Shown: in pieces, positions 47,887 to 53,405 of the stretch | Layout: the number at the start of each line of letters is the position of its first letter | How positions within the stretch are numbered: the stretch's first letter is position 1 | Assembly (NCBI RefSeq): GCF_900176005.1 | Contig: NZ_LT838272.1 | Span: 1,259,587-1,323,586, forward strand | From: Thermanaeromonas toyohensis ToBE | GTDB lineage: Bacteria; Bacillota; DSM-521; Neomoorellales; Neomoorellaceae | Direction: 5' to 3' | DNA: 64,000 nucleotides | Made by a program: the position numbers and the translations under genes | The notes under the pieces: generated by a model | Seen by the model: the letters and a program-made list of their open reading frames with translations, nothing else | Told to the model about the DNA's origin: nothing | Database searches by the model: none

Positions 47887-50106
47887 ATGCAACCAGTATT
47901 GCGTAAAGCGCTTACCGTAGCCGGCCGGGACCTTATTTTAGAAACGGGTCGGCTAGCGAGGCAGGCTGGTGGTGCCGTCCTAGTCCAATACGGAGGCACT
48001 ATGGTACTGGTTACCGCCACAGCCTCACCTCAACCTCGGGAAGGTATTGACTTCTTTCCACTAACTGTTGATTATGAAGAACGGCTATACGCGGCTGGTA
48101 AAATACCAGGGGGCTTTATAAAGAGGGAAGGAAAACCTAGCGAAAAAGCCATCCTTTCCAGCCGTTTGATCGATCGGCCTATCCGTCCCCTTTTTCCCAA
48201 AAGTTATCGGAATGATGTGCATGTAGTAGCTACTGTTCTATCAGTAGATCAGGATTGCCCCCCCAATGTAGCTGGGATAATAGGCGCTTCAGCTGCGCTA
48301 ACCCTTTCTGATATTCCTTTTAATGGACCTATAGGAGCCGTAGCTGTAGGCCTCATCAACGGGGAGCCTGTAATAAACCCCACCCTAAAACAGGAAGAAG
48401 AAAGCAAACTTCACTTAGTAGTGGCTGGTACCTATGAGGCGGTTATGATGGTGGAAGCGGGAGCTGATGAGGTACCGGAGGATCTCCTTTTGGAAGCTAT
48501 AATGGCCGGCCACGAAGAAATCAAGCGTATTGTGGCTTTTATACAGGAGTTTTGCCAGGAAGCTAAAGATTTAGGGTTAGCCCGAGAAAAACAAGAAGTT
48601 CCTGTAATAGAGCTATATCCGGGGATTGAGGAGGCTACCCGGTCTCTGGCTTGGAGTAGGTTAGAAGAGGTGATACGCCAGGGAATAGCGGAAAGATGGG
48701 GAAAGCAAGTACGGGAAAAAAATCTAGAAGCTTGTAAGGAGGCCATCATCCAAGAGGTCTTGGCCACTCACAGCGAGGCCGCTGTGGAACAACCTGAACT
48801 AGCGAGACAAATTAGTGACATTGTGACCCAGGTGGAGAAGGAGATCGTCCGGAAGTTGATATTGGAGGAAGGGATACGGGTAGACGGCCGAAAGCTAGAT
48901 GAGATCCGTCCCATAAGCTGTGAGGTAGGAGTCCTGGCGCGGACGCATGGTTCGGCGTTATTCACCCGAGGAGAAACCCAGATCCTTACTGTAACTACCT
49001 TAGGGTCAGTAAGCGATGAACAGATATTGGATGACCTGGGAGTAGAAGAGTCTAAACGCTATATGCATCACTACAACTTTCCACCTTACTCTGTGGGAGA
49101 AGCGCGGCCCATACGAGCTCCTGGCCGACGTGAGATAGGCCATGGCGCCTTAGCCGAGCGTGCCTTAGAGCCTATGATCCCTTCTGAAGAGGAGTTTCCT
49201 TACGCTATTAGGCTTGTGTCCGAGGTGTTGAGTTCCAACGGTTCCACTTCCATGGGGAGTGTATGCGGTAGTACCCTAGCTCTTATGGATGCCGGGGTTC
49301 CCATTAAGGCTCCGGTGGCCGGTGTGGCTATGGGCCTAGTCAAGGAAGGGGATAAAGTCGCCATCCTAACCGACATCCAGGGGATCGAAGATGCCTTAGG
49401 AGATATGGATTTTAAGGTTGCAGGTACAGCCCGAGGAGTAACCGCGTTGCAGATGGATATTAAGATCCCCGGGATCGATCGTAACATCCTGGCTCAGGCC
49501 TTGGAACAAGCTCGCCGTGCTCGCCTATATATTTTAGAAAAGATGCTAGAAGTGCTCCCGGAGCCCAGGAAGGAATTGTCTCCTTATGCCCCACGGATGC
49601 TCACCACCGTGGTGGACACTGATAAAATACGTGATATCATCGGCCCCGGAGGCAAAGTAATTAAAAAGATTATAGAAGAGACGGGGGTAGAAATAGATAT
49701 TGAGGATGATGGCCGTATATTTATTGCTGCTAATGATGCGAAAGCCGGGGAAAGGGCCCTTCAAATTATAGAAGCCCTTACCAAGGATATAGAAGTGGGT
49801 AAGATTTACAACGGTCGCGTCACCAGGATAACTGACTTTGGTGCTTTCGTAGAGATTATACCAGGTGTCCTAGGGATGCCTGGTAAGGAGGGCCTGGTGC
49901 ATATTTCCCAACTGGCCGAGGGAAGGGTAAGCCGTGTAGAGGATGTAGTGAAAGAAGGGGACGAAATATTAGTGAAGGCCATAGGGTTTGATTCCCAGGG
50001 AAGGGTAAGGCTGTCTCGTAAAGAAGCCCTGCGATCTCTACAGAGCTCTCCTGCGCCCACGCGGCCTACTTATCGACGCCCTGGTCGTGAACGCCGGGTT
50101 CGCTAA
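47887..50106 (+). CDS. pnp: Polynucleotide phosphorylase
   Basis: A 739-residue 3'-5' exoribonuclease: two RNase PH domains (about 10-220 and 310-540) joined by a helical domain, a KH domain ([15 protein letters not shown] near 587) and an S1 domain (about 638-705, [15 protein letters not shown]). It degrades RNA with phosphate. RNase J at 61060 would be its partner in decay. Confidence 0.97.
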
Positions 50107-50248
50107 GCACTTAGAATCTTAAGCGATATTCTATTCCTGGTTGTTCTGATGCCGGATAGTGTTCGCTGATCATTTTTAGATTACTAACCCTTTGCCAGTA
50201 GAGCATATATTTATGTATGGACTTAAGGCAAAAGCTAAAGGGAAGCGG

Positions 50249-50965
50249 GTGAAAGATTTGCGTGTGCTCTACTGGCGGCGCCAGAGACTGATATTTTGGG
50301 GTTTAGTAGTCCTAGCTTTGGGATTGGTGTTTGGCGGTTGGCTATGGTGGGCGGCACGGACGGTTTATGTGACTAAGGTAGTTCCTATATACCAGGGTGA
50401 TGCAAATAAGAAAGCTATAGCCCTGGTATTTAATGTGGATTGGGGGGAAGAGCATCTTCCCCAAATATTGGAACTTCTTTCCCAAGGGAAGGTACGAGCC
50501 ACCTTTTTCCTCACAGGGCAGTGGGCAGATAAGTTTCCAGAATTGGTTAGAAAGGTGGCTGAGTCTGGCCATGAGGTGGGGAATCATGGTTACGGCCATC
50601 TGCATGTAAATAATTTAAGCCGAGAGGAAATACGCCGGGATATAAAGCGAGCAGAGGAAGTGCTTATGGGTTTGATAGGCCGAAAACCTGCTCTTTATAC
50701 TCCTCCCTATGGAGAGAATAAACCCCATGTCATAGCTGCAGCAGTAGAGTTAGGGTATAAATTTATCCTCTGGACTATAAATCCAGGGGACTACTTGCCA
50801 GGCACTAAACCAGAAGATATTATAAAAACGGTAATATCCCATAGCCAGAACGGGGCTATAATTCAGCTTCATCCGACAGCCGCCACTACCCAGGCTTTAC
50901 CAGGTATTATTAATGGATTAAAAAAGCGTGGATACGCCCTGGTTACGGTATCCGAGATCTTATAA
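50249..50965 (+). CDS. Membrane-anchored polysaccharide deacetylase (YlxY-like)
   Basis: A 238-residue CE4 family protein with an N-terminal membrane anchor (about residues 14-36) and an external catalytic domain: LVFNVDWGEE metal-binding Asp, NHGYGHLHV (H-x3-H) near 108, YTPPYGENK and IQLHPTAATT. Start is ambiguous; GTG 50249 has AAAGGGA at suitable distance while the longer frame (TTG 50192) has none. In B. subtilis the pnp-ylxY-mlpA order is the same; YlxY-type proteins are linked to sporulation or cell wall. Confidence 0.82.
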   Translation: MKDLRVLYWRRQRLIFWGLVVLALGLVFGGWLWWAARTVYVTKVVPIYQGDANKKAIALVFNVDWGEEHLPQILELLSQGKVRATFFLTGQWADKFPELVRKVAESGHEVGNHGYGHLHVNNLSREEIRRDIKRAEEVLMGLIGRKPALYTPPYGENKPHVIAAAVELGYKFILWTINPGDYLPGTKPEDIIKTVISHSQNGAIIQLHPTAATTQALPGIINGLKKRGYALVTVSEIL

Positions 50966-50988
50966 AGTGGACGTTATTAATACTAAAG

Positions 50989-51035
50989 TTCCTCCTCGAA
51001 CATAATAGAAGGTGATAAAATTGTTCGAGGAGGAA
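50989..51035 (+). promoter_or_regulatory. Perfect 13-bp inverted repeat hiding the ribosome binding site of dacF-like gene
   Basis: TTCCTCCTCGAAC (50989-51001) pairs perfectly with GTTCGAGGAGGAA (51023-51035), loop 21 nt (A/T rich). The Shine-Dalgarno GAGGAGG at 51027-51033 lies fully in the 3' arm, 7 nt before ATG 51041. No T tract follows. Confidence 0.7.
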
Positions 51036-51040
51036 AAGGA

Positions 51041-52135
51041 ATGAATTTCTGGGGGAAGATTTTAACCGTCTTTTTTTTGTGTATAAGTTTTACCTTAGTA
51101 GGAGAGGCAGCAGAAGCACCTTGGGTTAGTGCTCCGGGAGCTATTCTTTTAGAAGCTAGTACAGGTCAAGTCCTTTATGCTAAGAATGCTCACCAGGAGC
51201 GCCCCCCAGCCAGCACCACCAAGATATTGACAGCTGTTTTGGGCTTGGAATTGGGGCGCCTGGATGACTATGTTAAAGTGAGTAAATATGCAGCTAGTAC
51301 TCCAGGAGCTAGTATTGATCTAGTACCAGGGGTGGTACTACGTCTGGAAGATCTTATTAAAGGGGCCCTGTTAAATTCTGGCAATGATGCGACAGTAGCT
51401 ATAGCCGAACATCTGGCGGGTTCAGAAGAAATCTTCGCCTGGCTTATGAACCGAAAGGCTGTTTTACTCGGAGCCTTCCAGAGCCATTTCGTAAATCCCA
51501 ACGGCCTGCCTGCCGAAGGCCACTATAGTACAGCTTACGATTTAGCGGTTATTACTCGCTATGCCCTAACCATTCCCCTCTTCCGCCAAATGGTAAAGAC
51601 CCGCCAGGCTAAGATTATGACTTCTGATGGGCCCCGCTATCTATACAATACCAATCGCCTTCTGGAGAGTTATAAAGGAGCTGATGGTGTAAAGACAGGT
51701 ACTACCAATGCAGCAGGGCAATGCTTGGTGGCCTCAGCTACAAGGGAGGGTCGGCAGCTCATAGCCGTGGTCTTGAGGAGCGAGGATAGATATGAAGATG
51801 CTAGGGTTTTATTGGATTACGGATTTAGTAATTTTTACTTGGAGAAGGTACCAGGTGGACAAAGGGTTGCCATGATTTACGTACCTTGTGGCCAGAAAAA
51901 GGAAATAGGGGTTGTAACTGCCCAGGAGGTAGCCTGGGCGGTTCCCACGGAAAAGATGGATCAATTGGAAAAGCGGGTGATTCTTTTCCCCCAAGTAAAA
52001 GCACCGGTCCAGAAGGGACAAGTTCTAGGTCGGATTGTCCTCTTATATCAGGGGAAGGAAGTTTCTTCCGCTGACTTGGTGGCTGAAGAGGGGGTGCCCG
52101 CAGAGAGAGGATTAATTCCCTTCTGGAAGTGGTGA
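51041..52135 (+). CDS. D-alanyl-D-alanine carboxypeptidase (DacF-like, S11)
   Basis: A 364-residue exported penicillin-binding protein. Signal peptide about 1-25 (ILTVFFLCISFTLVGEAAEA), active-site STTK near 58-61, SGN near 112 and KTG near 217, then a C-terminal beta domain. It trims the terminal D-Ala of peptidoglycan stem peptides. Related DacF has a sporulation role; vegetative use is equally possible. Confidence 0.93.
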   Translation: MNFWGKILTVFFLCISFTLVGEAAEAPWVSAPGAILLEASTGQVLYAKNAHQERPPASTTKILTAVLGLELGRLDDYVKVSKYAASTPGASIDLVPGVVLRLEDLIKGALLNSGNDATVAIAEHLAGSEEIFAWLMNRKAVLLGAFQSHFVNPNGLPAEGHYSTAYDLAVITRYALTIPLFRQMVKTRQAKIMTSDGPRYLYNTNRLLESYKGADGVKTGTTNAAGQCLVASATREGRQLIAVVLRSEDRYEDARVLLDYGFSNFYLEKVPGGQRVAMIYVPCGQKKEIGVVTAQEVAWAVPTEKMDQLEKRVILFPQVKAPVQKGQVLGRIVLLYQGKEVSSADLVAEEGVPAERGLIPFWKW

Positions 52136-52139
52136 AAGG

Positions 52140-53405
52140 ATGTATCGAAAAATAACTTTAGACAATGGCATAAGGGTGGTAAGTGAAGAGATCCCTTTTG
52201 TTCATTCTGTAGCCTTAGGAGTTTGGGTACGGGCGGGTTCGCGAAATGAGACCGAGGAAAATCACGGGGTTTCCCACTTTATAGAGCATCTGCTTTTTAA
52301 AGGAACTGAAAAAAGGAGCGCTAGGGAAATTGCCGAGGCCCTAGAATCCGTTGGCGGAGTGCTTAATGCCTTTACTACCAAAGAATACACCTGTTTTTAT
52401 ACCCGAGTGCTAGCAGAACATCTGGACTTAGCCATCGATGTCTTAAGCGATATGCTTTTTAATCCCCGCTTCAACTTAGAGGACATTGAAAAAGAAAAGA
52501 AGGTTATCCTAGAGGAAATAAAAATGTATGAGGATTCTCCAGATGAATTAGTTCACGACTTGTTTGCCCAAACTGTCTGGCCCGGTCATCCCTTAGGAAG
52601 GGCCATCTTAGGCACCTTCCAATCCATAGAAGGGCTGAATAGAGAACGCATTTGTAATTATTATCATGAGCATTATAATGCCCGCAACATCGTCCTAGCT
52701 GCAGCCGGCAATTTTAAGACCCAGGAGCTGGAAGAGAAACTGGCCAAGGCTTTTGGACAGCGGGAACTCCCCGGGGAGCCGGCTGTTTATTATCCACCCC
52801 ATGACAGACCCGGGATAAGTATAAATATTAAAGATACCGAGCAAGTTCAGATCTGCCTGGGTACCCCTGGCCTTGCCCAAGATGATGAAGATATTTATGC
52901 TTTGCAGGCTTTAAACAATATTTTGGGCGGGGGTATAAGTTCACGTTTATTCCAGCTTATACGCGAGGATAATGCCCTAGCTTATTCGGTTTATTCTTAT
53001 CATGCAGGGTATGTTGATAGTGGGCTGTTTACTGTATATGCTGGTACTAGCCCTTCTAACTTTCGGCAAGTAGTGGAACTTATTTTAAAGCAACTTGCTA
53101 TCTTAAAAAACGAGGGAGTTACGGAGAAGGAGCTTAAGCGCACTAAGGACCAGATTCGTGGCAACTTGCTCCTTAATCAAGAGAACGTAAGCCATCGGAT
53201 GAGCCGCTTGGGAAAAACTGAGCTTTCCTTTGGAAGGGTAATCACAACAGAAGAGGTGATAGAAAATCTCACTAAAGTAACAGTGGAAGATGTACAAAGG
53301 GTAGCCAAGAACTTGTTTTCTGCCCAAAGCCTGTCCTTGACCACTTTAGGACCGCCCCTGGAGGAATTAGATCTTAAGATGCTAGCTAGGCAAGTAGGAT
53401 TATAA
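52140..53405 (+). CDS. M16 family zinc peptidase (MlpA/YmxG-like)
   Basis: A 421-residue peptidase with the inverted zinc motif HFIEH near residue 46 and a downstream Glu in ILEEIKMYEDSPDELVHD near 121; the R/Y residues of the C-terminal M16 half (GGGISSRLFQLIRED) are present. It follows the carboxypeptidase by 4 bp and precedes a dUTPase-like gene. In B. subtilis the equivalent mlpA lies after ylxY. Confidence 0.92.
   Translation: MYRKITLDNGIRVVSEEIPFVHSVALGVWVRAGSRNETEENHGVSHFIEHLLFKGTEKRSAREIAEALESVGGVLNAFTTKEYTCFYTRVLAEHLDLAIDVLSDMLFNPRFNLEDIEKEKKVILEEIKMYEDSPDELVHDLFAQTVWPGHPLGRAILGTFQSIEGLNRERICNYYHEHYNARNIVLAAAGNFKTQELEEKLAKAFGQRELPGEPAVYYPPHDRPGISINIKDTEQVQICLGTPGLAQDDEDIYALQALNNILGGGISSRLFQLIREDNALAYSVYSYHAGYVDSGLFTVYAGTSPSNFRQVVELILKQLAILKNEGVTEKELKRTKDQIRGNLLLNQENVSHRMSRLGKTELSFGRVITTEEVIENLTKVTVEDVQRVAKNLFSAQSLSLTTLGPPLEELDLKMLARQVGL

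Follow-up and report, generated by a model that had tools for sequence, protein, structure and literature searches.

A hairpin that overlaps a conserved promoter-like site and probably masks read-through translation of a carboxypeptidase gene in Thermanaeromonas toyohensis

The dac stem and the genes around it

Why would a bacterial gene keep its ribosome binding site locked inside a long and perfect hairpin? The question is raised by dac of Thermanaeromonas toyohensis ToBE, which we analysed within a window of 64,000 nucleotides (the whole stretch of DNA under study). The gene (51041..52135, on the + strand as are all features given here) encodes an S11 (PBP5-type) D-Ala-D-Ala carboxypeptidase (Pfam Peptidase_S11, 8e-59, and PBP5_C) and is the third sporulation-type paralogue of this genome; of the two other S11 genes, one stands with spmA/spmB and one before spoIIAA-spoIIAB-sigF, their neighbours being named by sequence and order. 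The gene order at the locus is rpsO, pnp, pda, dac and an M16 peptidase gene. We presume that pnp (PNPase, 47887..50106) is the source of vegetative read-through, and no terminator-like site was found in the window between pnp and dac. The pda ORF (50192..50965) encodes a YlxY/PdaB-like polysaccharide deacetylase with matches to TIGR02764 (5e-56) and TIGR02873 (7e-52), both under the curated cut-off. In Bacillus subtilis, ylxY is sigma-E dependent (as cited in PMC9332280), and in Clostridioides difficile the deacetylase gene CD1319 has a sigma-E promoter and lies beside CD1320, the sigma-E controlled counterpart of the M16-family peptidase gene (52140..53405) found 3' of dac (PMC3789822). Therefore dac probably sits between genes that are read in the mother cell, which would be a reason to mask a gene of the forespore.

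A sequence-only reading of the window had reported an exact 13-bp inverted repeat with 21 nt between its arms that wholly contains the dac Shine-Dalgarno (SD) sequence, 7 nt before the ATG, and our analyses bore out both observations. The sequences TTCCTCCTCGAAC (50989-51001) and GTTCGAGGAGGAA (51023-51035) are exact reverse complements, and an additional A-T pair (51002/51022) extends the stem to 14 perfect pairs around a 19-nt loop, giving a 5' (anti-SD) arm at 50989..51002 and a 3' arm at 51022..51035. The SD, AGGAGG at 51028..51033, lies entirely within the 3' arm, 7 nt 5' of the ATG at 51041. No other perfect inverted repeat in the 64-kb window with 80 nt or less between its arms is as long, and GTTCGAGGAGGAAAAGGAA is present there once, a single copy that led us to reject a dispersed repeat. 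A known riboswitch or leader was likewise rejected, as no curated Rfam model matched with E <= 1 across 50100-51300.

The RNA folding that had been proposed as a check also supported the stem. The dac leader RNA has a predicted fold of -25.8 kcal/mol (z -3.07) that was equalled by one of 200 shuffles, and its SD is masked in the long RNA. The predicted cost of opening this SD, 11.9 kcal/mol against a median of 3.6, is the highest among the 54 window genes with an SD. Elsewhere in the window, the SDs that fold strongly are those of ordinary growth genes.

A promoter-like site in the stem, and the conservation of both

Absent from the sequence-only reading was a promoter-like site, TAATA-N18-CATAATA, that overlaps the stem in such a manner that the 5' arm falls within its spacer and its -10 runs into the loop. 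The -35-like TAATA is at 50978..50982 and the -10-like CATAATA, which spans the top of the stem and the start of the loop, is at 51001..51007. All 16 Moorellaceae dac leaders have TWATA followed by exactly 18 nt and then [CTG]ATAATA. Judged from the position of the -10, transcription is predicted to start in the loop at 51013..51015, and RNA from the dac promoter should thus begin at about 51013 without the 5' arm.

Forespore (sigma-F/sigma-G) promoters have a -35 of GYATA/GHATR, usually with G first, and a -10 with an upstream G (sigma-F) or a downstream A (sigma-G); this -35 consensus was used together with the SASP and sigG sites of the same genomes. The latter read GCATA-N18-CATACTA for SASP genes and GTATA-N15-GGNNATAAT for sigG, and the dac site is like them in its spacing and in its -10 core. 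Across the 16 dac leaders the upstream G, the downstream A and the 15-nt spacing are invariant, but the -35 begins with T in every one, which speaks against a forespore promoter. A spacing of 15 nt is usual for forespore promoters (PMC5942855), and dacF of C. difficile is sigma-G dependent (PMC3789822). By eye, gpr leaders carry GYATA-N15-GATAACCT; when spoIIR and gpr leaders served as the reference for sigma-F, a strict N17-19 pattern gave essentially nothing, with two weak spoIIR matches. Taken from such sequence comparisons, assignment of the dac promoter to the forespore type (sigma-G or sigma-F) appears well ahead of sigma-70, while falling short of proof. A genome-wide search with the promoter pattern returned 7 matches against 5 in a reversed control, and was therefore not enriched; none of the other matches in the genome had the stem-promoter design.

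The pairing itself was assessed by letting the 18-nt spacer of each leader pair with the segment between the predicted transcription start and the start codon. The native spacer-SD duplex was better than nearly all shuffled spacers in 12 of the 16 leaders, and in the window species and several others none of 2000 shuffles was as good. In L003, L006, L009 and L013 the native pairing was unexceptional and shuffled spacers were often as good. When spacers were swapped among nine lineages, pairing as good as the real one arose in 1 of 20000 permutations, and an exact swap test with six lineages gave 2 of 720. Compensatory changes in the leaders of relatives, whose absence had been named beforehand as evidence against the stem, were found, with pair types at one position, for example, shifting between C-G, T-A and G-C. 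As a plain MAFFT alignment misplaced the 3' arm of L016, pairs were counted in a fixed promoter frame and in a register-anchored alignment. The latter gave 19 double-changed cells versus 6.3 in shuffles and a score that falls when the partner arm is slid, although its anchoring on the pairing makes these counts lean towards structure; covariation for the dac stem was 0.442 versus 0.254 in shuffles. Arm sequences differ among genera and loop lengths vary, and complementarity is retained. Within a Moorellaceae sample of few members that are related to each other, these results argue that the pairing is kept by selection.

The Moorella thermoacetica-type leaders L006, L009 and L013 have no spacer-SD pairing and retain the promoter motif, indicating that the motif is independent of the stem. 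Immediately 5' of the -35, all three of these species have a strong hairpin with a T-run (ACGGGT...ACCCGTTTTTTT or similar). Two other species have both a terminator and a stem, and most stem-bearing species, the window species included, have no strong terminator. The terminator and the masking stem therefore look like substitutes for one another, a pattern that could have arisen in just one or two evolutionary events. As a separate observation, dac leaders of the M. thermoacetica type exceed the others in length.

Predicted folds of the two RNAs differ in how far they expose the SD. In the long RNA the probability that the dac SD is unpaired was 0.005 at 37 C and 0.02 or less at 70 C, whereas in RNA from the predicted start it was 0.25-0.3 at 37 C and 0.67 at 70 C. 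For most stem-bearing species, opening the SD takes 7-14 kcal/mol when the RNA is long and 2-7 kcal/mol when it is short, but in L012, L014 and L015 the SD is covered by folding in the short RNA as well. On these models, masking of the dac SD should be confined to read-through RNA, with the SD more accessible in the local transcript, because the latter would start in the loop and lack the 5' arm. The claim that the stem blocks translation unless it is melted by heat, a protein or an alternative fold consequently divides in two: the masking stands in the predicted folds, whereas the need for such melting is not supported, with no more than 2% of the SD unpaired at 70 C. In addition, no conserved competing fold was seen. 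A transcript start inside the loop had been held to speak against the stem, but the start that the conserved promoter predicts would change the function of the stem from that of a sensor to that of a read-through insulator, not abolish it.

A second stem at pda and similar designs in other Bacillota

The neighbouring gene pda has a mask of its own. The 5' arm of a second stem contains TTG 50192, with which the longest pda ORF opens, and comparison with relatives indicates that the true start is likely TTG 50258. The 5' arm (50192..50208), with a promoter-like GCATATA at 50203-50209, pairs with a 3' arm (50262..50278) that covers the codons just past the likely start. This inverted repeat forms a predicted stem of 17 bp, and none of 1000 shuffles was as good. 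Both GCATATA in the arm and pairing across the start region occur in 17 of 17 family leaders, with 18-25 bp in relatives, and the pda stems of L014, L015 and L017 have matching changes in both arms. With spoIVA leaders as the reference, the sigma-E consensus for the pda promoter was not settled. Those leaders (L203-L218) contain, about 40-110 nt 5' of spoIVA, a highly conserved CATATA.ATGTA.TGTTAAAACATGCCA, which is longer than a promoter needs to be.

Outside the family, a promoter-like TCTG[AT]-N15-CATA is conserved 5' of pda in L029 and L069-L110 (Desulfosporosinus and others). In the Desulfosporosinus-type leaders its C-rich spacer pairs with the G-rich SD, and a swap test of 15 leaders gave 78 of 20000; the TCTG of its -35 does not fit what we take to be the sigma-E consensus. 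Among non-family leaders, no more than 3 of 300 shuffles equalled the native pairing in 6 of 25 for dac and in 11 of 32 for pda. Three MAGs of non-family Bacillota (L062, L080 and L105) have stems of the type TACTTCGCCCC...GGGGTGAAGTA on the dac SD, with AATAATA/CATAATA in the loop. In dac of Desulfofundulus (L041, L042 and L045), codons 2-5 include CTTCCCGGTT, a match to an upstream AACCGGGAAG that might mask the coding start.

The hairpin as a probable read-through mask

We consider it probable that the dac hairpin is a read-through mask, by which the carboxypeptidase is made only from its own forespore promoter, in its own compartment and at its own time. What the analyses show in support of this reading is a stem conserved through compensatory changes, a promoter-like site that does not vary and a predicted shift in SD accessibility. 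The remainder of the scheme is inferred, from the identity of the sigma factor and the place of the transcript start to the occurrence of read-through and the effect on translation. RNA arriving from upstream (from rpsO-pnp in growth and from pda in the mother cell) would carry both arms, such that the dac SD would be locked in the 14-bp stem and hardly any dac translation would occur. During sporulation, a forespore sigma factor (sigma-G or sigma-F) would direct RNA polymerase to the promoter that has the 5' arm as its spacer and its -10 at the loop, and the resulting transcript would begin in the loop without that arm, leaving the SD more accessible.

The same mask could operate around a vegetative promoter, in which case sigma-A would read the site in the loop, dac would be expressed at a set level in growth, and the stem would only block extra translation from pnp read-through. 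Such a promoter is compatible with TTAATA-18-CATAAT scoring 9/12 as a sigma-70 site and with the perfect TATAAT of many relatives. However, the first base of the -10 varies between C, T and G while the upstream G and downstream A do not vary, in the manner of forespore promoters; there is no TTG in the -35, the layout is that of the sigG promoter of the same genomes, and dac is located among sporulation genes, all of which lead us to regard a sigma-A promoter as unlikely. Less likely still is an RNA switch, that is, a thermometer or a stem opened by a protein, a ligand or an alternative fold, with dac translated from the long message. Full masking of the SD in the long RNA would suit a switch, but thermometers melt near the growth temperature, and we reject a thermometer here on the basis of the modelled SD, which is still closed at 70 C. 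Against switches more generally, it is the pairing and the promoter that are conserved and not the sequence of the stem, Rfam gave no match, and the 5' arm begins 24 nt past the pda stop codon, outside the usual reach of a terminating ribosome.

The symmetry of the arms about the -10 and the loop could also suggest a DNA operator, a dyad bound by a repressor or activator over the promoter. A protein site would be expected to conserve sequence and not pairing, whereas here the arm sequences differ among genera, loop length varies, pairing is kept and the 3' arm lies over the SD, and an operator is accordingly a very improbable explanation. We give equally little credence to chance, in which the match between a pyrimidine-rich spacer and a purine-rich SD would be accidental. 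SDs do pair readily with CCTCC-like stretches, and the leaders in which shuffled spacers did as well (L003, L006, L009 and L013) are what chance would produce, but it fits neither the several leaders, that of the window species among them, for which no shuffle was equally good, nor the lineage-swap test, nor the repetition of the design in the neighbouring pda and in other orders.

On the best reading by analogy, the proposed dac mask belongs with the read-through masks of B. subtilis sigG and phage T4 gene e. For sigG (spoIIIG), a hairpin of 20+ bp was proposed to block translation of spoIIGA-sigE read-through RNA and is impossible in RNA from the sigG promoter (Masuda 1988 and Sun 1991, as cited in PMC5942855). 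Both sigG and dac are sporulation genes with a forespore promoter of their own, in the case of dac a putative one, and both follow an operon that a different sigma factor reads. They differ in that dac encodes a carboxypeptidase, follows rpsO-pnp-pda, has a smaller stem, and has an anti-SD arm that is the promoter spacer itself; by inspection, sigG leaders of the same genomes have no comparable spacer-SD hairpin. The T4 leaders of gene e, soc and I-TevI have their ribosome site shut in a stem when the RNA comes from early read-through, and a late promoter in the DNA of the 5' strand yields RNA that lacks this strand and is translated (PMC3014915, PMC2988022). Unlike dac, these are phage genes read with the phage late sigma factor gp55, and they have no sequence relation to it. 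Masking of the RBS only in RNA that enters from outside is also a feature of IS10 fold-back inhibition and lacI-lacZ read-through, although in a mobile-element or operator context, with no sporulation promoter and with unrelated sequence. In the open-access literature, we found no paper on such masking at pnp, ylxY or this dac.

There is an even chance, in our estimation, that these observations reflect a broader arrangement in which clostridial sporulation genes behind rpsO-pnp are insulated gene by gene, with each promoter placed in the 5' arm that masks the next start. One strand would then serve both as promoter spacer (or -10) and as anti-SD, and vegetative, mother-cell and forespore messages would overlap and yet be translated only in the right cell. 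The arrangement would recur with unrelated arms in Moorellaceae (pda and dac), in the Desulfosporosinus type (pda) and probably in other Bacillota (dac of L062, L080 and L105). It would also supply a search rule, namely a promoter spacer complementary to the downstream SD. If true, the case of B. subtilis sigG would extend to two more genes, adjacent to each other and conserved across orders, and the silence of compartment-specific genes in the wrong cell, despite read-through in packed clostridial operons, would be explained.
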